A stretch of DNA of 64,000 bases from Atopomonas hussainii (GTDB lineage Bacteria; Pseudomonadota; Gammaproteobacteria; Pseudomonadales; Pseudomonadaceae), in assembly GCF_900109735.1 (NCBI RefSeq), contig NZ_FOAS01000008.1, positions 1 to 64,000 of the forward strand, in the 5' to 3' direction. The translations under genes were made by a program, and so were the position numbers. Position 1 is the first letter of the stretch, and each line of letters opens with the position of its first letter. Under the pieces are notes generated by a model that saw nothing but the letters and a program-made list of their open reading frames with translations, made no database searches and had not been told where the DNA came from. This document shows positions 2,642 to 13,364 of the stretch, one piece after another.

Positions 2642-5341
2642 TTGGCTTCCGCAGATTTCATCGCCGGCAGTTTGCTGCGTTCGCGCCTGACCCCCCCGTT
2701 GGTCAAGGCCGACTATTTGAGCCGCCCGCGTTTACATGAGGCGCTGGTTCATCATCCCGATGCGCGCGTGGTACTGATCGCCGCTCCAGCAGGTTTTGGC
2801 AAAAGTTCGGCGTTGGCTGCCTTGGCAGAGCTTAAACGCGAGCAAGGCTGGTCGGTCGCTTGGCTGAGCTTAGAGGCTGGCGAAGATGATCCGCGCACCT
2901 TCTGGCAGATGCTGATTGAATCGGTACGTCAGAGCCTGCCGCACTTCGGTCAAGATGCCAGCGAATTTCTCGACAACACCATCAGTGTGCCGGTCGCTGC
3001 CTTGGTTGAAAGTCTGATTATGGACTTGCACCACAGCGAGCAACCGCTGCTGCTGGTAGTCGATGATCTGCACGTAATCACCGACAAAGCCACCTTAGAT
3101 GGCTTGGCGCGGCTGGTGCAGTTTGCCCCGGCTGGCGTGCAGCTGGCGTTTGGCAGTCGAGAGTTACCGCCAATGCCGCTGGCGACGTGGCGCGCCCGGC
3201 ACTGGATGATCGAGCTAGGCCAAGATGACTTGCGTCTGTCGCAAGAGGAAACCCGCAGTTACCTCAAACGCCACGGCGGCGAGCTGGACGACAAGTTGCT
3301 CGGTAAGCTCACCCAACAGACCGAAGGCTGGATGGTCGGAGTGCATCTGGCCGGCTTATGGCTGGGTAGCGAGCAGGCCAAAGGCCGCGAAGTAAAAGCC
3401 CTGCCAGAACAAGAGGGGATGGCCGATTACTTGTTGGCCAGCGTGTTTGAGCAACTACCGGCCGACCTGCAAGAGGCTGTTTTGGCACTCAGCGTGGCGT
3501 CGCAGATCAACGGCGACTTGGCCAATACCCTCACCGGGCGCACAGACGGTCAAGCCCTGCTGGAAGACTTAGAAGCCAAGCAGCTGTTTTTCGTGCCGCT
3601 TGATCGTGAGCGGCATTGGTATCGCTTCCACCACTTGTTTGCTGATTTCGCGCGTAAGCGCCTGCAAAGCCAGAATTTGAAGCGTTTTCGGCAGCTGCAC
3701 TTCAACGCCAGTCTGTGGTTTACCAATCACCACATGCAGAACTTGGCCATTGAGCATGCTTGCCAAGCGGATGACCCTGAGCTGCTCGCCGCGCTGGTGA
3801 ATGCCTGCGGGCTAGAGCTGATCAACCGTGGTCAGCTGAATCTGCTCTATCGCTGGCGCTTGAATGTGCCGGATGCGATTGCTCAGCAGTACCCGATTTT
3901 GGTGCTGGCTGATGTGTGGACTCAAGCCGCCAGCATGGCGCTGCCGGAGGCCAACCGTTTGCTCGACCAGCTGCTAAAGCGCTGGGGCGATGGCCAAGAG
4001 CAGCCTTGGAGTGAGGAGTTTCTTGCCGTGCAGGCCGTGCGCGGGGTGATTGCTCTGCAAAAAGATGACCTGCAAACCTGTATCTCGTTAGCCCGCAAGG
4101 TGGCTAAGCAGATGGGCCGCAGTAACAGCTTTCTTGAGGCGGCGATTGTGCTCTGCGGTGGCTTTGCCGCGTGCGTGATGGGCTGGCTTGAGCAAGGCCA
4201 GCAATTGCTGCAACTGGCACAGCAGCAAGTACCGTTTCTTAAAGGCAACTTTTTGGCCATGCAGATGGGCAATCTGCAAATGTTCCTTGAGTTGGAGCGT
4301 GGCCGTTTAGGCCAAGCACGCCACTTAGCCAGTCAACTGCGGGAACAATACACACCGTGGTTTGGCGCCGACTCCAAGGCTTTAATTCTGCCGGCGATCA
4401 GTCAGAGCTTAGTGGCCTATGAGCAGCTAGAGCTTGATGGCTTGAGCAATCGCCTGTGTTGGGCGCTGGCCAATATCGATGTGATCAATCCGATTGACCT
4501 GTATGCCCGTGGCACCTTGTGCATGGCGCGCGTGCAGCGTTTGGCCGGTAAAGACAAAGAAGCGCTACAAACCTTGGCGCAAATGCAAAGCTCGGCCAGC
4601 CGAGCGCAAGCGTGGCGGTTTTTCTCTTTGGCGTTGGCCGAAGAACTCGCCTTGCTGTTGCAGGACGGCAACGCCGAAACCCTGCGTAAAGTCGAGCAGC
4701 GCTTTAAAACCACCGAATGGGCCAAGATGGCCGAGCGCTATAGCGCCGCGCCGTATAACCCGGTGGTCTGGTCGCAAGGTTTAACCCAGGTTCGTCTGCA
4801 TCAAGCGCGTAGCCACTTTAGCGAGGCTTTACACGAGATCACGCGGCTGCGCGGGTTATTACTGCCGGGTTGGCATGGCTTGCAGCGGCTGCGTTTAGAT
4901 CTGCTCGCGGCCGTGAGCTATCAGGCACTGGGCTATCGTGACCGGGCGCATAACCTGTTGGTGCAAACCTTAGTGCAAAGCGAGAAAGAAGGCTTGCGCA
5001 GCATCTTTATCGAAGAAGGTTTGGCAGTGCGGGATTTGCTCCGCGAGCTAGAAAGCAACGAGCGGCAGCCGGCCTTACAGAGTTTTATTCGAGGTTTGCT
5101 GAGCTTTTGGGCGACCGAAGAAGACACTACCAGCGCTGAACAAGTGCAAGAAATGCTCACCGAGCGTGAGCGTGAGGTGGTGGTATTGGCTGCGCAAGGC
5201 ATGTCTAACGAGCAGATCGGTCAGCAGCTGGATCTCGCCTTGGGCACCGTTAAATGGCACCTGCACAACATCTACGAAAAACTGCGGGTGCGAAACCGCA
5301 CGCAGGCAATTCGTCGTGCACGTGAACTGAGTCTACTCTGA
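2642..5341 (+). CDS. MalT-like LuxR-family transcriptional regulator, first of two
   Basis: A large signal-transduction ATPase regulator of 899 residues. It has a Walker A motif APAGFGKSS near residues 48-56, a long helical TPR-like middle, and a C-terminal LuxR helix-turn-helix (about 837-899, from LTEREREVVVLAAQGMSNEQI). This is the MalT/AlkS/AcoK architecture, in which an inducer and ATP drive oligomerisation and promoter activation. The TTG start at 2642 follows AGGG at 2631-2634. The inducer is unknown. It is followed after 15 bp by a paralogue and then by the DUF6160/C39/barrel locus, its most likely target. It runs divergently from pabB with a 160-bp gap. Confidence 0.88.
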   Translation: MASADFIAGSLLRSRLTPPLVKADYLSRPRLHEALVHHPDARVVLIAAPAGFGKSSALAALAELKREQGWSVAWLSLEAGEDDPRTFWQMLIESVRQSLPHFGQDASEFLDNTISVPVAALVESLIMDLHHSEQPLLLVVDDLHVITDKATLDGLARLVQFAPAGVQLAFGSRELPPMPLATWRARHWMIELGQDDLRLSQEETRSYLKRHGGELDDKLLGKLTQQTEGWMVGVHLAGLWLGSEQAKGREVKALPEQEGMADYLLASVFEQLPADLQEAVLALSVASQINGDLANTLTGRTDGQALLEDLEAKQLFFVPLDRERHWYRFHHLFADFARKRLQSQNLKRFRQLHFNASLWFTNHHMQNLAIEHACQADDPELLAALVNACGLELINRGQLNLLYRWRLNVPDAIAQQYPILVLADVWTQAASMALPEANRLLDQLLKRWGDGQEQPWSEEFLAVQAVRGVIALQKDDLQTCISLARKVAKQMGRSNSFLEAAIVLCGGFAACVMGWLEQGQQLLQLAQQQVPFLKGNFLAMQMGNLQMFLELERGRLGQARHLASQLREQYTPWFGADSKALILPAISQSLVAYEQLELDGLSNRLCWALANIDVINPIDLYARGTLCMARVQRLAGKDKEALQTLAQMQSSASRAQAWRFFSLALAEELALLLQDGNAETLRKVEQRFKTTEWAKMAERYSAAPYNPVVWSQGLTQVRLHQARSHFSEALHEITRLRGLLLPGWHGLQRLRLDLLAAVSYQALGYRDRAHNLLVQTLVQSEKEGLRSIFIEEGLAVRDLLRELESNERQPALQSFIRGLLSFWATEEDTTSAEQVQEMLTEREREVVVLAAQGMSNEQIGQQLDLALGTVKWHLHNIYEKLRVRNRTQAIRRARELSLL

Positions 5342-5356
5342 GAGGGTGGTTAATCG

Positions 5357-8065
5357 ATGAATGCGGCTTTCATGACAGCACCTGTCTTGCGCACCAAATT
5401 GTTCCCCCCCGCAGTGCCAACCCAGTTGTTGCCGCGTGACTCGCTGCTGGAGCGTTTGTGGCAAGGGCGGGAAAAGCCTTTGCTGGTGCTCAGTGCGCCG
5501 GCGGGATTCGGCAAAAGCACCATTCTGACGCAGTTCCGCCAGCGCTTAATCAACGATGGCGCGCAGGTGGTGTGGCTGACGTGTGAAGAGTCCGACAGCG
5601 AGCCACAACGCTTATTGCAATATCTCAGTGCGGCGATTGCCGAGCATGCCCCGGAGCAAATGCAGGGCCTGCAAGCGATGCTCAACACCGACGTATCGCT
5701 GCCGGCAGAAGCCTTAATTGATGCCTTTTTGGCCGAGCTGCAGCGTTTGCCGGGGCAGTGGTACGTGTTTCTGGATGACTTTCATCGGGTGCGACACCCC
5801 GCTTTGGCGCAGAGCAGTCGGTATTTCTTAACCAAGCTGCCGGCCCACGTGCACTTGGTGACTTCAACGCGTCGGCGCCCGCGTTTTGTCGTGGATGAGC
5901 CGGCGCTGGCTGCACAGTGCTTGTGGCTCAGCGGCGAAGACTTGCGCCTTAGTCTGTCGGAAACGGAGCACTTTCTCTGTCAGCTGCGTGGCTTGAATCT
6001 GACTTCCGAGGAAGTCGGCAAGCTGCACAAGCGCACCGAAGGTTGGTTAACGGCGCTGCATTTGTTGGCTTTGGCGTTGCAGCGTCAGCCGGACCCGGCC
6101 AAGTTTCTGGAGGCCTTATCGGGGACTGAACGCAATATCGCTGATTACTTGGCCGAAGATGTCTTGGTGCATCTGGAGCCTGACATGCAGCGCTTTTTAG
6201 AGCTGACCTCGCCGCTCGATGAGTTTTGCGCCGAGTTATGCGACAGCTTGTTGGGGCGGGAAGACAGCCAGCAGCGCATCAATTTTTTACAGCATGCCCA
6301 GCTGTTCATTATTCCGCTGGATGAAGAGGGCAAGTGGTTCCGTTATCACCACCTGTTCTCCGAGTTTCTCTTGGCGCGTTTGGCGCGCCATGCTAGCGCG
6401 GCGGAGCAGTGCATTCGTGCGTCGCGCTGGTTTGATCAGCAAAACATGGGCGATAAGGCCGTCATGTATGCCTTGCGCGCCCGCGATTATCCGCTAGCAG
6501 CCAGTTTGCTAGAACGCGAAGGCGCTGCACTGGTGGCCGGGAGTCGTGTGTATGGCGTGTTGGGCCTGCTGGAAGGGTTGCCGCCAGAGGTGATTCGCGA
6601 ATACCCAGTCTTCCAAATTTTTTATGCGTGGCAGAAAGCCTTTGAAGGGCGCCATGCAGAGGCCGAAGGGCTGATAGAAGAGGTCTCCGCTCGGCTGCTG
6701 CAAGGCTTGGCGCGAGGCTCACGGCCGGCGGCCGAACTCTTGGTGGCTGCGCAGATGCTCAAAGCGCTGGTCTTGTTGTATCAGGACAAACTGCATGCGT
6801 GCGTTGAAGTCAGCCGCAATTGGTTGGGCAAAGTGCCTGGTGGCGAACACGTGTTCCGCAGCAGCATGTACAGCGTGCAGGCAGGCGCGCATGCGCTGCT
6901 CGGTGAGTATTCAGAGGCGGCGGTGTGTATCGAAAGAGCCCGCGCTTCGCTCGAGCATGTCGATAGCGAATACCTGCATAGCTGGACCAATCTGATCGAG
7001 TCTTTGGTGCTTAAAGAGCAAGGCATGCTCGAGAGTGCCCGCAAGCTCTGCGAACAAGCGCGGGCCAGAATTCATCAAGTATTCGGTCGGCACAGTCGAG
7101 TAGGCGGCCCATTGGCGCTCGCGCATGGCGATATTTTGTACGAACAAGATCGCCATGCGGCGATCTTGGCCGAGTTGCCCAGCGCAACCACGTGGCGCGA
7201 TTTAGGCACGCCCATGGAGCTGATCAACCGTGGTCAGCTGGTGATGATTCGCGCGCGCTTTTACGCGGGTGAGTCGCAGCAAGCGCTGCAGGAGTTGGAT
7301 GAGTGGTTGGCCAGCACGGAAATGCCCGGCTACGAGCGTCTGCATGCCTTGGCCTTGGCCGTTAAAGTGCAGTTTTTGTTGTGGCTGCGTAAGCCGGCCG
7401 AAGCCAGTCATGCCGCGGTGCTGCTGGATGGCCTGCAGGCGCGTATCGAGAAGAAACAACTGAATGATGCAGAGTGCGCCTTGCTCCTGACCCGTGCTCG
7501 GGTGGCGCTCAGCGAGAAAAATCCCGATTTGATCGTGGCTGACTTAGAGCGTATGGCGACGCACTTAGAGCCACAGGCATCACTGGGTGACCGCTATTTG
7601 CGCATTGTCTTGTTACTTTCTGTGGCGTACTGGCAAAAGGGTAACATCGAGAAAGCGCTGCGCTTGCTCGAAAGCGTGATGCAGCGCGCGTGGCCACAAG
7701 GCTACCGGCGCATGTTTATGGACGAAGCCATGCTGTTATTGCCCTGCTGGCAAGACCTTAGCGTGCAGCATGGCGAGGTGCTATCAGCGTGGCCTTTGCT
7801 CCCAGAAATGCTTCGTGAACAGTGTTTGCGGTTGTTGGTTGATCCTGAGTTTCTTCAAGAGGATCAATGGGTTAGCCATAGAGAGCGGGAGGTTTTACGC
7901 TTGGTGGCGGCGGGTATGTCGAACCGCGATATTGCACAGACGGTACACCTCTCCGAAGCCACCATTAAATGGCACTTGCACAACCTGTTCGGCAAGTTAG
8001 GGGTGCGTAGCCGCACACAGGCGGTTTTGAAGGGCAAAGAGTTGGGTTTGATCAGTGAGGTCTGA
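5357..8065 (+). CDS. MalT-like LuxR-family transcriptional regulator, second of two
   Basis: A paralogue of the preceding gene, of 902 residues with the same layout: Walker A APAGFGKST at about residues 47-55, a TPR-like helical middle, and a C-terminal LuxR DNA-binding domain beginning VSHREREVLRLVAAGMSNRDI. The two differ through the middle region, so they probably sense different ligands or act as a pair rather than being a fresh duplication. ATG 5357 follows the purine-rich GAGAGGG. The gene ends 212 bp before the DUF6160 gene on the same strand. Confidence 0.88.
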   Translation: MNAAFMTAPVLRTKLFPPAVPTQLLPRDSLLERLWQGREKPLLVLSAPAGFGKSTILTQFRQRLINDGAQVVWLTCEESDSEPQRLLQYLSAAIAEHAPEQMQGLQAMLNTDVSLPAEALIDAFLAELQRLPGQWYVFLDDFHRVRHPALAQSSRYFLTKLPAHVHLVTSTRRRPRFVVDEPALAAQCLWLSGEDLRLSLSETEHFLCQLRGLNLTSEEVGKLHKRTEGWLTALHLLALALQRQPDPAKFLEALSGTERNIADYLAEDVLVHLEPDMQRFLELTSPLDEFCAELCDSLLGREDSQQRINFLQHAQLFIIPLDEEGKWFRYHHLFSEFLLARLARHASAAEQCIRASRWFDQQNMGDKAVMYALRARDYPLAASLLEREGAALVAGSRVYGVLGLLEGLPPEVIREYPVFQIFYAWQKAFEGRHAEAEGLIEEVSARLLQGLARGSRPAAELLVAAQMLKALVLLYQDKLHACVEVSRNWLGKVPGGEHVFRSSMYSVQAGAHALLGEYSEAAVCIERARASLEHVDSEYLHSWTNLIESLVLKEQGMLESARKLCEQARARIHQVFGRHSRVGGPLALAHGDILYEQDRHAAILAELPSATTWRDLGTPMELINRGQLVMIRARFYAGESQQALQELDEWLASTEMPGYERLHALALAVKVQFLLWLRKPAEASHAAVLLDGLQARIEKKQLNDAECALLLTRARVALSEKNPDLIVADLERMATHLEPQASLGDRYLRIVLLLSVAYWQKGNIEKALRLLESVMQRAWPQGYRRMFMDEAMLLLPCWQDLSVQHGEVLSAWPLLPEMLREQCLRLLVDPEFLQEDQWVSHREREVLRLVAAGMSNRDIAQTVHLSEATIKWHLHNLFGKLGVRSRTQAVLKGKELGLISEV

Positions 8066-8277: not shown

Positions 8278-8718
8278 ATGACCCTCAAGAAACTGGCTCT
8301 GGCAACCGCTCTGGTAACTGCTCCTTTCATGGCTCAAGCCGAACTGCAAAGCATGGACGACGCAACTTTGTCTGCTGTAACTGGTCAGGCTGGTATCAGC
8401 ATTTCCGGTAACTTTAACGGTACTGTTGGTGCCGTTGTGTACACCGACACTGATTGCACCAACTGCTCTATTCGCATGGAAAACGTGCAGCTGACCGGTT
8501 TGAATGTGACCGATGCTAACCCAATCACTGTTGACGTTGTTGAGGCCACCATCGGCGGAAACACTGTTAACCAAATCGCTATTGGCCTGCCGTCGATGAC
8601 TGGTGGTATGACCGTAGGTGCTATCAAAGTGGGCAGCACTTCTGCAGCTAGCATTGGCTCTGTTGGCATTGAAGGCATTAACTTTGCTGGCTCTACTGTT
8701 AAGGTTTGGGGCCACTAA
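8278..8718 (+). CDS. DUF6160 (FilA-like) exported protein
   Basis: A small exported protein of 146 residues. The signal peptide (residues 1-21) ends in AQA, followed by ELQSMDDATLSAVTGQAGISI, the hallmark N-terminus of the DUF6160/FilA-like family. The mature part is rich in G, T, V, I and S and probably forms beta structure; it has one cysteine pair, CTNC. ATG 8278 follows GGAGA. Residues 26-37 fit the spacing of a double-glycine leader (M at -12, L at -7, V at -4, G at -2, Q at -1), notable beside a C39-type peptidase gene. A terminator directly follows, so this may be the most abundant transcript of the locus. A structural surface-fibre subunit is an inference. Confidence 0.75.
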   Translation: MTLKKLALATALVTAPFMAQAELQSMDDATLSAVTGQAGISISGNFNGTVGAVVYTDTDCTNCSIRMENVQLTGLNVTDANPITVDVVEATIGGNTVNQIAIGLPSMTGGMTVGAIKVGSTSAASIGSVGIEGINFAGSTVKVWGH

Positions 8719-8737
8719 TCGCTTAGGCGGTTGATCC

Positions 8738-8774
8738 AAGGCCTTATCAGCCAAGGGCTGGTAAGGCCTTTTTT
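8738..8774 (+). terminator. Intra-operon terminator/attenuator after the DUF6160 gene
   Basis: A long hairpin (AAGGCCTTA paired with TAAGGCCTT, with an inner CAGCC/GGCTG pairing) followed by TTTTTT. It ends about 15 bases before the ATG of the C39-like gene on the same strand. That would leave the first gene strongly expressed and the downstream genes dependent on read-through or a weak secondary promoter. Confidence 0.85.
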
Positions 8775-8788
8775 ACAGGGGTGCTGAC

Positions 8789-9547
8789 ATGATTGAGTTG
8801 TTGGTCGGTGGTGTGATCACCCTTTTGGGGTTTCAAGAAACCGTTGAGAGCAAGCCGCAACCTCAAGGTGCGGTCGTTGTGAACTCTCAAACAGGCGCTA
8901 TGGCGCAGCGTGAGCGGGTTTCTCTGGAGCCTATGTCGCAGCTGCAATTCCGCAATGTGATTCGGCAAGCCTACGACTACAGCTGTGGTTCGGCAGCATT
9001 AACAACCTTGTTGGATTATTACCTAGGGATGAATCTTGAAGAGCGCCAAGTCATGGATGGCCTGTTGCGCTTTGGCGAGGTCGATAAGATTGTCGAGCGC
9101 CGAGGGTTCTCGTTGCTGGATATGAAGCGTTTCGTCGGGGCTTTAGGTTACAAAAGTGGCGGTTTTAAAGCTGGTTTTGAAGACTTGGCAGGCCTAGAGC
9201 ACCCAGCCATCGTGCCTATTCACTATGCAGGCTTTAAGCATTTTGTGGTGGTTCGTGACGTTTATAACGACCATGTTTTTGTTGCTGATCCTGCGCTGGG
9301 TAATATCAGTTTTACAGCGGCACGCTTTCAAGAAGTGTGGGACGAAAATATTCTTTTTATCGTGTTTCCCAATGAGGCGCCGCTGAACAGTGCTATGGCA
9401 TTGAGCGATAAAGATTTGCGCATCCTGGACGATCGCACGGTGAACTGGCTGGCTTTTCGCGAGTTTCCGCAGATTACCAAGTTCATGGAAAACGAGGCTG
9501 ACGAGCTAAGCTCGGGCGGCGATAAGCATTACATACGTCGCAAATAA
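8789..9547 (+). CDS. C39-family peptidase-like protein (FapD/FilB-like)
   Basis: A papain-fold C39 peptidase-like protein of 252 residues. The motif RQAYDYSCGSAAL places the candidate catalytic Cys at 66, with His151 in FKHFVVV and Asp168 in VADPALG, so the triad looks complete. A short hydrophobic N-terminus (residues 4-15) suggests membrane attachment or export. C39 domains usually cleave after GG in leader peptides. FapD of the Pseudomonas functional-amyloid system is a stand-alone C39-like protein needed for fibre export. No ABC transporter domains are attached here. Its substrate is inferred to be the DUF6160 protein encoded just upstream. Confidence 0.82.
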   Translation: MIELLVGGVITLLGFQETVESKPQPQGAVVVNSQTGAMAQRERVSLEPMSQLQFRNVIRQAYDYSCGSAALTTLLDYYLGMNLEERQVMDGLLRFGEVDKIVERRGFSLLDMKRFVGALGYKSGGFKAGFEDLAGLEHPAIVPIHYAGFKHFVVVRDVYNDHVFVADPALGNISFTAARFQEVWDENILFIVFPNEAPLNSAMALSDKDLRILDDRTVNWLAFREFPQITKFMENEADELSSGGDKHYIRRK

Positions 9548-9592
9548 CTCCGGCGTAAATAACGATAAGAAAGTGGTCTGGGGGATGGATCA

Positions 9593-10597
9593 ATGATGCA
9601 GCGATTTCTCGCTGGCATGCTGGCTGTAGCATGCCTGGGCAGTCTGCCAGTACAAGCCGATGAAACGTCTACCGACAAGGCGCGTGATGCTTTGGCGAAG
9701 AAAGCTGATGATGCTGATACCGAAAAGGCGCTTGAAGAGGTCTTTCAGGCTGCGGAAAAAAGCTACACCTTGTTGAAAAAAGGTGAGCGCACGTTAACCT
9801 TTGCGGCCGATTATTCGTTAGTGCGCGACACTCTGATTGAAACTGTTCGGCAAAACGGCAATGTGTATAGCGTGGTAGGCCGTAGCGAAGCGCAGCATAC
9901 GTTCACCAATTCATTTACATTCGACTACGGTGTTTGGGATAACCTGACATTCAGCGTTCGCTTACCTTTGGTGGCTAAATACGATACAGGTCGCGATCTC
10001 AATCGTTATAGCATTGGTGATGTTTCCACAAGTGCGCGCTGGCAGCCCTGGGAAGCTGTACGTGGTAAGCCAGTTTATACATTGTATGGCACGTTGAGCC
10101 TGCCTACGGGTGATAGCCCTTACGATATTAATCCGGATAATGATCTGTCCACCGGCTCTGGATTTTATAGCTTAGGCTTTGGTCTTAATGCTAGCTACAT
10201 TATTGACCCTGTGGTGCTGTTTGGTTCGGCAGGTTATACCTACAACATGAAGATCAGCGACGTTGATCAGGTGCGCAGTGGGCGCTTGTTGAATGATGTT
10301 GATCCTGGTGACACCTTGTCGTTCAGTGCAGGTTTTGCTTATTCCCTTTCTTACGATGTCTCTTTAAGTGCTTCTTATCAGATGTCGCACTCGCTAAAAA
10401 CCAAATACACCTTTGCCGATGGCTCTGTAGAGGGCGCTGAAGCGACCAGTGCGATAATGAACTTTGCCCTTGGTGTGCGTACCGATCCAGATACGATTGT
10501 TAACGTGAATGCCGGGTTTGGTATGACCGAGGATTCGCCGGATGTCTTGCTGGGTATTTCCATGCCCATCGACATCAAAGGCCTGAAGTCAGAGTAG
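9593..10597 (+). CDS. Outer-membrane beta-barrel protein with N-terminal helical segment (FapF/FilC-like)
   Basis: A secreted protein of 334 residues. The signal peptide (1-22, ending VQA) is followed by a charged helical stretch at about 24-66, with many A, K, D and E residues and coiled-coil potential. After that come alternating amphipathic strands typical of a small outer-membrane barrel of the 'transporter' type. An N-terminal helix plus barrel is the plan of FapF, the Fap amyloid export pore; homology to FapF is not established here. ATG 9593 follows GGGGG at 9580-9584. It is followed after 8 bp by the FadL-like gene. Confidence 0.7.
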   Translation: MMQRFLAGMLAVACLGSLPVQADETSTDKARDALAKKADDADTEKALEEVFQAAEKSYTLLKKGERTLTFAADYSLVRDTLIETVRQNGNVYSVVGRSEAQHTFTNSFTFDYGVWDNLTFSVRLPLVAKYDTGRDLNRYSIGDVSTSARWQPWEAVRGKPVYTLYGTLSLPTGDSPYDINPDNDLSTGSGFYSLGFGLNASYIIDPVVLFGSAGYTYNMKISDVDQVRSGRLLNDVDPGDTLSFSAGFAYSLSYDVSLSASYQMSHSLKTKYTFADGSVEGAEATSAIMNFALGVRTDPDTIVNVNAGFGMTEDSPDVLLGISMPIDIKGLKSE

Positions 10598-10605
10598 GGG
10601 GCTGC

Positions 10606-12198
10606 ATGACACATTTAGCGGCCCGTTTGCTGACGGGGTTGGGGAGTCTCTGCCTGTTTGTTGGCGTGGCTCATGCGCAATTGGCGCAAAACTTAACTAT
10701 CGGCAACCCTAAGGCTATGGCCTTAGGTAATGCGATTACCGCTGACTCTAGTGGTATCGACGCAGTGCATTACAATCCTGCGGCACTAACTAAGCTCAAA
10801 GGTCGGCAGACTCAAATGAAGCTGCTGACTGGTATTATGGATATTCGGGCTAAGTTCGATGCGCCTGCAGGTTATGGACGTAACTTCTTTGGTTACACCA
10901 ATGATGATGTTGCTGGTAAAAGTAGTAGGACCACTACCCCAGCAATGTATTTGCCGGGCTTTGGTGGTTTAACTGAGATGCCTGTATTGGCGGCACCCTT
11001 GGCTGGTATTTCAGTTAACCCGCCTGGTTCTAAGTTTACTTTTGCTACCAATGTTTATGCCCCGCAAGCGCTGGGTTTTTCGCGGGATGATGACGATGAC
11101 CCGGCGCGCTATCAGGGGCGCAAGGTGGCTATTCAGCGGATTACTTATTTGTCCCCTTCGGTCGCTTATCAAATGAATGATGAGCTGTCGTTTGGTCTGT
11201 CGGTGGGTTTTTCTCATCAAGCGATGGCGCTTAACCAAGATTTTCGTGCGCCGGGGCCGCTAACAGGGGTTACTCAGCTGTTTGGTGATGTTTTTAAGGC
11301 CGGTGTTTGCGCGACGCCCATTACTATCTTGGTAAATTTCTGTGGGGCATCGTTGGGGCCATTTACAAATATGGCTAATCTGGACTTGGACTTGCAGCAA
11401 AAAATGGCACCTTCATGGAATGTTGGTGTGCTTTGGGAGCCGGTTGACTGGTTTGCTTGGGGGGCTACTTACCAGAGTGAGTCGCGAATGCACTTGCAAG
11501 GTAAGTACAGGGTAGACTATTCGCATAACTGGCAGAGTTTCTGGAGTGCATTTAATTCGGCCTTGTTGCCGCAATTTATTCCTATTTTTCCTAATGGCGC
11601 TGTTGATGAGGAGCGGGGTTCGGCATCTCTTGACTTAACCTACCCGGATCACTTCTCTACTGGCATAAAGTTCAAGCCTCATGATGATTGGCAGGTTAAC
11701 TTAGATCTTAAATGGACCGATTACGCTGATTGGAATGAGTTTACGATTGAGTTTGATCGAGAGCTTGATATGTTGAGGATCGCAAAGGTCTTTTCTTCTC
11801 AAACGGCGACAAGTAGTAGCATTACACTGGATCGTGGCTACGAATCGGTATGGAGCTGGGCCCTAGGTGTGCAATATGACGTTAATGAGCGCCTTTCTTT
11901 GCGTGCGGGCTATGAGCCGCGGCCATCATCAATTCCTGGAAATAAAGCAGATGTGCTGGCCCCGGTAGGGGATGCAGTGTTGTACGGATTAGGGATGGGC
12001 TACCGCTGGGATAAGGACACAGTTATTGATGTGGGGTTTAACTACTTTGTTAGTGAACAGGATATCCCTGCAGGTACTAGCTGTAATGTGAACTGTTCGG
12101 GTATTGATAAAATAGTCTACAACCCCTACGCCGATCTGGACGTGAAAACCAAAACCACTGCCTACATAATGGCCATTACCTATCGCACCACGTTCTGA
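10606..12198 (+). CDS. OmpP1/FadL-family outer-membrane protein
   Basis: An outer-membrane beta-barrel of 530 residues. The signal peptide (1-24, VAHA) is followed by the FadL-like hatch sequence GNPKAMALGNAITADSSGI and HYNPAALTKL. FadL/TodX proteins move hydrophobic molecules (fatty acids, aromatics) across the outer membrane, but members in secretion-type loci may do something else. Base composition is visibly more AT-rich than in neighbouring housekeeping genes, for example around 11520-11760. It ends 8 bp before the next start, so the genes are co-transcribed. Confidence 0.85.
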   Translation: MTHLAARLLTGLGSLCLFVGVAHAQLAQNLTIGNPKAMALGNAITADSSGIDAVHYNPAALTKLKGRQTQMKLLTGIMDIRAKFDAPAGYGRNFFGYTNDDVAGKSSRTTTPAMYLPGFGGLTEMPVLAAPLAGISVNPPGSKFTFATNVYAPQALGFSRDDDDDPARYQGRKVAIQRITYLSPSVAYQMNDELSFGLSVGFSHQAMALNQDFRAPGPLTGVTQLFGDVFKAGVCATPITILVNFCGASLGPFTNMANLDLDLQQKMAPSWNVGVLWEPVDWFAWGATYQSESRMHLQGKYRVDYSHNWQSFWSAFNSALLPQFIPIFPNGAVDEERGSASLDLTYPDHFSTGIKFKPHDDWQVNLDLKWTDYADWNEFTIEFDRELDMLRIAKVFSSQTATSSSITLDRGYESVWSWALGVQYDVNERLSLRAGYEPRPSSIPGNKADVLAPVGDAVLYGLGMGYRWDKDTVIDVGFNYFVSEQDIPAGTSCNVNCSGIDKIVYNPYADLDVKTKTTAYIMAITYRTTF

Positions 12199-12206
12199 GG
12201 TTGGTT

Positions 12207-13364
12207 ATGCGCCTTTGTTTTGCTTTGCTGCTGTTGTCGTTGCCTGCGTGGGGGGCTTCGGGAAAGTACCTGACCTGGATTGATCAGCACGGCCGTTTGC
12301 ATAACACCTTTGTGGGTAGCGAGTTCTCTGCGCAGCAAGAGCAGGCGCGTCAGCAGGTGGAAGATCAAGATCGTTTGCGCTTGAGTGGTGATGGCGGTGC
12401 AGGTGGCCTGTATCCCGTGCAGTCTGGCACGGAAAGCAAGCGGCGCTACTTTACTTGGGTGGACCAAACAGGGCGTCTGCAAAGTAGCTTCTATGCCAAT
12501 CAAGTCGGGCAAGGCGGTAACCCGCGCGATTATGTCTTGCCCTCGGGTGAGCGTGCGTCGGATTACATGGATGCCGATGTGCTTGAAGGGCGTGGCTTTG
12601 TCCGTAGTGAAAACGGTAATCCTTATTACACCTGGGTCGATGATCAGGGGCGAACGCATAACTCGCCGATCAGTGTCGAAGAGCGCGCGGCGATGTTCGC
12701 TAAACCCAGTACGGTGAGCAAGATCGAGTTTAACGAGGGCCGTGAGGTCAATCTTTCCGGTAAAGCACAGCAGCTGCCGGGCCTTGATGGTGCGCCGAAT
12801 GAGGCCATGCGCCGCTTGCTGGGCGATAGTGCGCAAGTGCAAGGCATCATGCGTGAAATGCAGCAGCGTTGTTGCTTGCAGCTGACCGACGATGACTTTA
12901 TCGAGCTGTCAGTTGAAGAGCCGCGCTATGAAGAAATGAACAGCTTTTCACCGAGCCTAGCTTTACCCACCGGCAAAACGAGTTATGCGGCATTTCGTTT
13001 GCCACGTTCGCAGCGTACCTATGGGCTCAGAGTGCGCAGCTTTGCCAATAAAACCGTGGTGTACCCCAGCTTGCTGTTTTTAAACGAAGGCAAGGTGCCG
13101 ACGCGGATGGTTAGCGACGCGGTGTACCAACTGCATCCCGAGACTTGGTATCGCTATGCGTTTCTTGAGGGCACCGTGGCGATTCGCCCCGAGCGCGGCG
13201 AGCGTTATGTGCTGTTGATTACTACCAGCGAAGATTTGGCGCAGGCAACGCTGGATAACCAGCCGTTTAAGCGCCCGCTGCAAGCATTGACGGTTGATGA
13301 GGATGGCTTGCAGCAGCACGCGCATGTTCAGGAAGGTGCTTTTGAGTTGGCAATCGTCCGCTAG
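12207..13364 (+). CDS. FilE-like exported protein with three WVDxxGR repeats
   Basis: An exported protein of 385 residues. ATG 12207 was chosen over TTG 12201 because it follows GAGG at 12197-12200 and starts a clean signal peptide ending at about residue 17. The N-terminal half holds three copies of one motif: YLTWIDQHGRLHNTF, YFTWVDQTGRLQSSF and YYTWVDDQGRTHNSP. The C-terminal half (about residues 200-385) looks like a beta-rich domain of the type annotated in Acinetobacter FilE. It is the last gene of the locus before a bidirectional terminator. The function is unknown; a role in surface assembly or ligand binding is inferred from context only. Confidence 0.65.
   Translation: MRLCFALLLLSLPAWGASGKYLTWIDQHGRLHNTFVGSEFSAQQEQARQQVEDQDRLRLSGDGGAGGLYPVQSGTESKRRYFTWVDQTGRLQSSFYANQVGQGGNPRDYVLPSGERASDYMDADVLEGRGFVRSENGNPYYTWVDDQGRTHNSPISVEERAAMFAKPSTVSKIEFNEGREVNLSGKAQQLPGLDGAPNEAMRRLLGDSAQVQGIMREMQQRCCLQLTDDDFIELSVEEPRYEEMNSFSPSLALPTGKTSYAAFRLPRSQRTYGLRVRSFANKTVVYPSLLFLNEGKVPTRMVSDAVYQLHPETWYRYAFLEGTVAIRPERGERYVLLITTSEDLAQATLDNQPFKRPLQALTVDEDGLQQHAHVQEGAFELAIVR

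Follow-up and report, generated by a model that had tools for sequence, protein, structure and literature searches.

The window analysed here, a 64,000-nucleotide stretch of Atopomonas hussainii DNA, carries a fil-type gene run on the plus strand (8278-13364), made up of filA, filB, filC, filD and a gene with MalM and DUF4124 domains and lying behind two MalT-like regulators:

5357..8065, plus strand: MalT-like LuxR regulator, directly upstream (PF17874, PF00196)
8278..8718, plus strand: filA-like gene, DUF6160 pilin precursor, 146 aa (PF19657, 86.7 bits, cut-off 27)
8789..9547, plus strand: filB-like gene, stand-alone C39 peptidase, 252 aa (Pfam, NCBIfam, fold)
9593..10597, plus strand: filC-like gene, FapF-related outer-membrane barrel (NCBIfam FilC 335 bits, FapF 63 bits, both under cut-off)
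10606..12198, plus strand: filD-like gene, FadL family barrel (PF03349, 330 bits; NCBIfam FilD 540 bits, under cut-off)
12201..13364, plus strand: fifth gene, MalM and DUF4124 domains (domain matches)

Homologues of FilA, FilB, FilC and FilD are present in this order, all scoring under their NCBIfam cut-offs (55/220, 290/475, 335/630 and 540/970 bits, respectively). The run shares the gene order FilA-B-C-D and the NCBIfam best matches with the Acinetobacter Fil pilus or fimbriae (FilA-FilF), from which it differs in these low scores; cleavage by FilB is not described in the passages on Fil available to us. FilA is a fibre subunit in Acinetobacter Tol 5, according to the parts of two reports that we could consult (PMC11784438, PMC3498257). 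From its position, the product of 12201..13364 possibly fills the FilE role. Judged by FilB (95% identity), the closest relative with a name is Atopomonas sediminilitoris (L082). Profile searches of the five fil genes against Pfam and NCBIfam detected no member of the FapB, FapC or FapE families, and the definition of a Fap amyloid system (FapD-/FapE-type genes plus FapB/FapC repeats) is not met by these genes. The two MalT-like LuxR regulators are tandem paralogues (2642-8065) directly upstream of filA, and it is inferred that the fil genes may be under the control of one of the two.

A leader-like segment behind the FilA signal peptide

The FilA precursor has LQSMDDATLSAVTGQ followed by AGIS immediately behind its signal peptide, and can be divided as follows:

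8278..8340, plus strand: Sec signal peptide, residues 1-21, cut between A21 and E22 (n-region KK, hydrophobic core and AQA before E, read without a predictor; AlphaFold2 helix 3-24)
8341..8388, plus strand: leader, residues 22-37, ELQSMDDATLSAVTGQ (alignment conservation; AlphaFold2 short helix 28-35, equal to -10 to -3, at low confidence)
8386..8391, plus strand: predicted second cut site, between Q37 and A38 (the chain in PDB 9xfv begins at the homologous residue)
8389..8715, plus strand: predicted mature pilin, residues 38-146 (AlphaFold2 beta structure from residue 40; 9xfv aligns to model residues 38-146)

The interval 8341-8394 corresponds to residues 22-39 of the 146-aa open reading frame at 8278-8718. 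With Q37 taken as -1, L23 falls at -15, M26 at -12, D28 at -10, L31 at -7, V34 at -4, G36 at -2 and A38 at +1, so that the coordinates and the spacing (hydrophobic -12, -7 and -4, Gly at -2, Gln at -1) are as the earlier note wrote. The AlphaFold model places the helix 28-35 between the signal-peptide helix and the beta structure that starts at residue 40. Signal peptidase I was rejected as the cutter at A38, as its -3/-1 residues would be Thr and Gln.

In the FilA sequence alone the leader pattern is weak: in shuffled mature FilA, the four-position pattern occurred within the first 40 residues in 10.3% of cases and the five-position form in 2.8%. At the family level, judged from sequence comparison, the pattern is above chance because it is conserved across the family, not because of any single sequence. 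Of 75 DUF6160 loci listed, 67 were used and gave 62 distinct motifs; three were dropped for lack of a frame (L097, L114, L161), two for the wrong strand (L026, L102) and three as mislocated (L022, L027, L110). Positions -12 and -7 were hydrophobic and -2 was Gly in 62/62, -1 was Gln in 60/62, -4 was Val in 49/62 and -10 was Asp in 48/62. The regular expression used to locate the motifs imposed -12, -7 and -2, and weighted -4, -10 and -1 without requiring them; the evidential weight therefore lies on -10, -4 and -1. A MAFFT alignment of FilA made without the regular expression (33 of 47 sequences, close or exact duplicates omitted) recovered the same columns, with D28, T35, G36, Q37, G39, I40 and I42 invariant.

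Hydrophobic residues at -12, -7 and -4 plus Gly at -2, one half of a test for double-glycine leaders, were found in the window FilA and the 62 DUF6160 motifs; the other half, Gly, Ala or Ser at -1, was not met (Gln in 60/62; one paralogue in the window genome has GA). None of 35 DUF6160 leader peptides matched known double-glycine-leader or bacteriocin family profiles at E ≤ 1. Gly at -2 is not absolute, since three FilB-neighbouring proteins in two genomes read VAQ/TAQ (SVAQ, TAQ).

The motif was not confined to genes beside a peptidase. The earlier note had proposed that it would be conserved only where a C39 gene is adjacent, which failed: 51 distinct motifs come from genes far from filB and 11 from adjacent ones, and both have the same motif. 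Adjacency is therefore no discriminator, and FilB presence in the genome is. Six further proteins of the window genome have the motif right behind a signal peptide; contig C24 encodes five of them as a tandem array and C19 the sixth, all away from any C39 gene, and the genome contains only one FilB-type C39; one FilB apparently serves unlinked substrates. Among 48 FilB loci of named genomes (L042-L089), FilB was recovered by script in 47, of which 46 have an upstream motif-bearing FilA. The locus missed by the script (L085) contains three motif proteins; no motif protein was found in the stretch of L083 that was read.

The C24 tandem (G000:C24:179800-186050; L008 4830-11050) consists of five DUF6160 genes of 193-783 aa, all leader-bearing, GA occupying -2/-1 in one of them; neither a barrel gene nor a C39 gene lies close by. 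The tandem is presumably flanked by a decarboxylase gene and by genes of a condensin-like set.

In two genomes (G281, G393) no FilA is linked to FilB and FilC, and fifteen small scattered proteins carry the motif. Relative entropy in these proteins was 3.0-4.3 bits at -12, -4, -2 and -1 and 2.1 bits at +1 (Gly/Ala), and from +2 onward fell to 0.9-1.3 bits, equal to the variable leader positions. Read from these columns, the profile is shaped like that of a cleavage site and not like the beginning of a domain. In FilA itself, the residues +2 to +5 (GISI) equal the leader in conservation; the motif could therefore be a structural one, which is a point against cleavage. A new N-terminal strand with a structural function would be expected to be conserved in this way.

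The mature start in a native pilus

The only strong PDB match of the FilA model was 9xfv (Foldseek 1.8e-4), a native 'pilus-like' filament from a karst cave with 25 chains of 173 aa. The two are homologous by sequence (FilA profile, E 1.3e-14) and by fold (VIA Z 7.6, rmsd 5.1 over 102 residues). The 9xfv chain opens DGVSIAGDLN, aligned to the residue directly after GQ, and in the best FilA matches its residue 1 stands immediately behind 'vtgq'. The entry is numbered 38-210, a range to which FilA 38-146 is matched by structural alignment; the predicted first mature residue of FilA is likewise 38. A mature start at +1 is thus supported by observation in a homologous native pilus, not in FilA itself. 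A disordered leader could mimic this start if only modelled residues were deposited, but it would then be strange for the start to fall exactly on the predicted site.

The organism, gene and protease behind 9xfv are unidentified. Its source gene had no good match in 49 FilB-positive genomes, plasmids or 85 genomes of the class, the only match among the 49 being a weak, partial one to the window genome's own C19 paralogue, and a literature search found no paper for the entry. For the Tol 5 FilA, a 2012 figure legend, the part of that source available to us, states that Edman sequencing was done.

FilB and its genomic association with the leader

The gene after filA matches Peptidase_C39 (65.2 bits), NCBIfam FilB (290 bits, cut-off 475) and NCBIfam FapD (115 bits, cut-off 330). 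Its catalytic residues lie in two segments:

8966..8986, plus strand: FilB Gln60 (oxyanion) to Cys66 (nucleophile), invariant in 29/29, aligned to LahT
9239..9289, plus strand: FilB His151 to Asp167, the rest of the triad, invariant in 29/29, aligned to LahT

The alignment held 29 of 48 FilB sequences, close or exact duplicates being omitted; with Q60, C66, H151 and D167 invariant, the adjoining gene does encode a C39-like protein with a complete triad, as had been claimed. The FilB model resembles PCAT1 (Z 15.5), the ComA peptidase (Z 15.3) and LahT (Z 14.8), and meets the test for peptidase family C39 (fold, Cys-His-Asp triad and oxyanion Gln); outside the C39 core the model is poor (mean pLDDT 62.5). 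At the FilB N-terminus, no positive charge precedes the short hydrophobic segment, which leaves the topology of the protein unsettled, and action in the periplasm is an inference. Divergent FilBs in two genomes (G016, G058) have ordinary-looking signal peptides. The FilB clade is separate: most FapD-type genes score ~90-125 bits on the FilB model, against 160-516 for true FilB.

In the excerpts of the enzyme studies at hand, the leaders recognised by LahT and PCAT1 are helical between -10 and -4 and are bound by way of hydrophobic residues at -12, -7 and -4 (PMC6959990, PMC6363468); for LahT, L-7 and L-12 are required, Thr at -4 or the absence of Glu-8 is tolerated, and a charged residue at -7 or most substitutions at -12 are not (PMC6363468). 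At -12, -7 and -4 FilA carries Met, Leu and Val, and the LahT crystal peptide NLSDDELEGVAGG is strikingly similar to the C24 paralogue ALSDEKLSEVTGQ. FilB thus shares fold, triad, leader spacing (-12/-7/-4/-2) and the -10 to -4 helix with the C39 domains of PCAT/AMS ABC transporters (LahT, PCAT1, ComA), and differs in having no ABC transporter, in acting, by inference, after Sec, and in having substrates with Gln at P1 and a signal peptide ahead of the leader. The published C39 sites, within the same excerpts, are GG, GA or GS in a narrow cleft (PMC6959990, PMC6363468), and Gln at P1 of FilA is a misfit to this preference for Gly, Ala or Ser. P1 identity may be read as clade specificity because -1 is Gln in FilB genomes and Gly, Lys or Arg in FapD loci. 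Sequence does not exclude a cut after Gly in a shifted register; the 9xfv start argues against it.

Genome-level association was examined in the order (390 genomes, FilB called at ≥160 bits): 50 genomes had both DUF6160 and FilB, one had DUF6160 only, one FilB only and 338 neither (51 DUF6160-positive, 51 FilB-positive). The sole DUF6160 genome without FilB (G002) is 75% complete, and the sole FilB genome without a DUF6160 match (G058) encodes a protein with a signal peptide and VDDSQLSEVDGQ close to filB. Among 369 genomes of the class, five had both, none DUF6160 only, one FilB only (G153) and 363 neither; G153 encodes a 107-aa secreted protein with LLSDNELRTITGQ before Ala. Fisher p was 6e-61 for the order, 1e-10 for the class and 3e-8 for the order collapsed to ~47 family labels, the last being the fairest because genomes are not independent. 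Most DUF6160 genes are not beside filB, yet they are almost confined to FilB genomes. A 21-position motif model run over 50 genomes gave E ≤ 0.001 in FilB-positive genomes only, and missed the G058 protein; weak matches appeared in 4/42 FilB-negative genomes (E 0.02-0.08), where those that could be read start no secreted protein and some could not be read.

A FapD-type C39 was rejected as a sufficient partner: 25 genomes of the order have this type only, and none of them has DUF6160. One of the 25 (G509) may hold a cut-off FilB.

That FilB makes the Q37-A38 cut, and is proteolytic on its partner at all, is inferred, and the same data could be read in other ways. The N-terminal motif might stay uncut and serve as a signal for export or assembly, recognised either by the FilC barrel or by a FilB whose sole role is that of a chaperone. 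All eight FilB loci that were inspected also contain FilC, which leaves co-occurrence unable to tell cutting apart from export; inactive C39-like domains are substrate chaperones in type I secretion, according to the portion of one report available (PMC5557850); and conservation from +2 to +5 in FilA orthologues would fit such a signal. However, the triad is kept in every FilB aligned, the 9xfv chain opens at +1, conservation ends at the cut site in G281 and G393, and in the same portion of that report FapD C38A abolishes FapC secretion (PMC5557850). We regard an uncut signal as improbable. No better placed is removal of the leader at or near Q37-A38 by another periplasmic or surface protease, which Gln at P1, unusual for C39, and the lack of a direct FilB assay leave possible; against it, FilB alone among C39 proteins is tied genome-wide to the leader, the leader spacing matches that of C39 leaders, and FapD and FapE offer a parallel with canonical RGG sites. 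A chance amphipathic N-terminus, with mature FilA beginning at E22, would agree with the 3-10% probability of the pattern in a single sequence, and is negligible in view of conservation in 62 distinct motifs, the 9xfv start at +1 and the co-occurrence of DUF6160 and FilB. A literature search restricted to open-licence PMC articles found no report of FilB cleavage or DUF6160 processing.

The FapD/FapE parallel and a proposed post-Sec pathway

In the sections of the Fap reports accessible to us, FapD is an active periplasmic C39, known since at least 2017 and essential for amyloid secretion, and its catalytic Cys is needed for FapC secretion (PMC5557850); its substrate was reported as unknown, no canonical C39 site was seen by the authors, and FapE alone among the subunits yielded no peptides from its first ~70 residues, those of FapA-D being spread throughout (PMC5557850, PMC6173800). 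We found that 40 of 45 FapD-type loci encode, at the FapE position, a secreted protein with the FilA leader spacing (the five without it are L122, L144, L198, L199 and L200). These leaders mostly end RG(G/K/R)(F/Y); Pseudomonas FapE reads IELKD(A/Q/S)E(L/M)A(x)LRG(K/R)(Y/F), and other FapE PLSDPELSEYRGG before Phe. The FapE regular expression matched 37/938 open reading frames in FapD loci (one an antisense accident) versus 0/4396 elsewhere. Six weak Pfam matches were obtained with 42 FapE-type peptides, five of them to lantibiotic or lactococcin families, compared with four weak matches for shuffled peptides, none to these families.

FilA and FapE leader profiles aligned in register (hhalign probability 84%). 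Part of this register correlation is built in, as the selecting regular expressions share the spacing; with the imposed columns removed, 72 of 20000 permutations reached the observed value, and 580 of 20000 when the regex-free FilA alignment was also used. The Fap system thus resembles the Fil system in that a stand-alone C39 lies next to a barrel of FapF/FilC type and to a secreted partner whose leader has the same spacing, and differs in P1 (G/K/R in FapE, Q in FilB substrates), in its pilin (FapC instead of DUF6160) and in the separate clade of its peptidase. Because the ~70-residue gap in FapE is longer than the leader, FapE may be cut more than once.

The earlier note's two-step maturation, signal peptidase followed by a cut before A38, is supported because of the family motif, the DUF6160-FilB co-occurrence, the FapE parallel and the 9xfv start, together with the FilB fold. 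We propose that Sec would export FilA, the signal peptide being lost between A21 and E22, and that the 16-residue leader would then act like a bacteriocin double-glycine leader, as a short amphipathic helix whose -12, -7 and -4 residues dock in the C39 groove, by inference from LahT and PCAT1, with Gly at P2 and Gln at P1 as the clade hallmark. Periplasmic FilB would cut between Q37 and A38 and free an N-terminal strand, (A/D)-G-I-S-I, and the freed pilin would leave through the FilC barrel and polymerise, a purpose of the cut that is likewise inferred. One FilB per genome would serve every leader-bearing protein, wherever encoded, and FapD would treat FapE likewise, with G/K/R at P1. We put the probability of this whole pathway at roughly 78%.

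The finding is broader than what had been noted before, a post-Sec leader common to dispersed fibre proteins, tied to one C39 and with a second version in Fap. Its generalisation, a Gram-negative post-Sec pathway in which a trans-acting periplasmic C39 (FilB or FapD) would process dispersed fibre proteins with a bacteriocin-like leader, P1 would be the specificity code and FapE the FapD substrate, is one toward which we lean with less assurance. The leader would predict exact cut sites for both FapD and FilB substrates, account for the native pilin start in 9xfv and provide a signature for finding all substrates of FilB/FapD-type systems; a leader type thought to be cytoplasmic and ABC-linked would here be used after Sec for fibre assembly.

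Several further observations were made in FapD-type and related loci. In FapD-type loci such as L128, L132, L135, L137, L140 and L189-L197, another small secreted protein, encoded immediately upstream of the C39 gene, has a leader-like motif (e.g. LADGELAAMRGG, VSNDHLQEQSGR), so those FapD enzymes may have at least two substrates. Pseudomonas FapA (L182-L187) has mid-protein motifs, e.g. LSDRDIGGISSG, of the same spacing with Gly at -1 and not -2; published mass spectrometry, in the portion seen, detected FapA peptides throughout the protein. The last ~80 bases of a Verrucomicrobiaceae MAG contig (L090) encode a stretch 96% identical to FilB, the remainder being unrelated, which is probably an assembly or binning artefact. 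One genome (G189) has six FapD-like C39 genes dispersed over several contigs, and in L190 (G060:C11:1025500-1037000) a fapC-like/C39/FapE block is duplicated in tandem, in near-identical copies.
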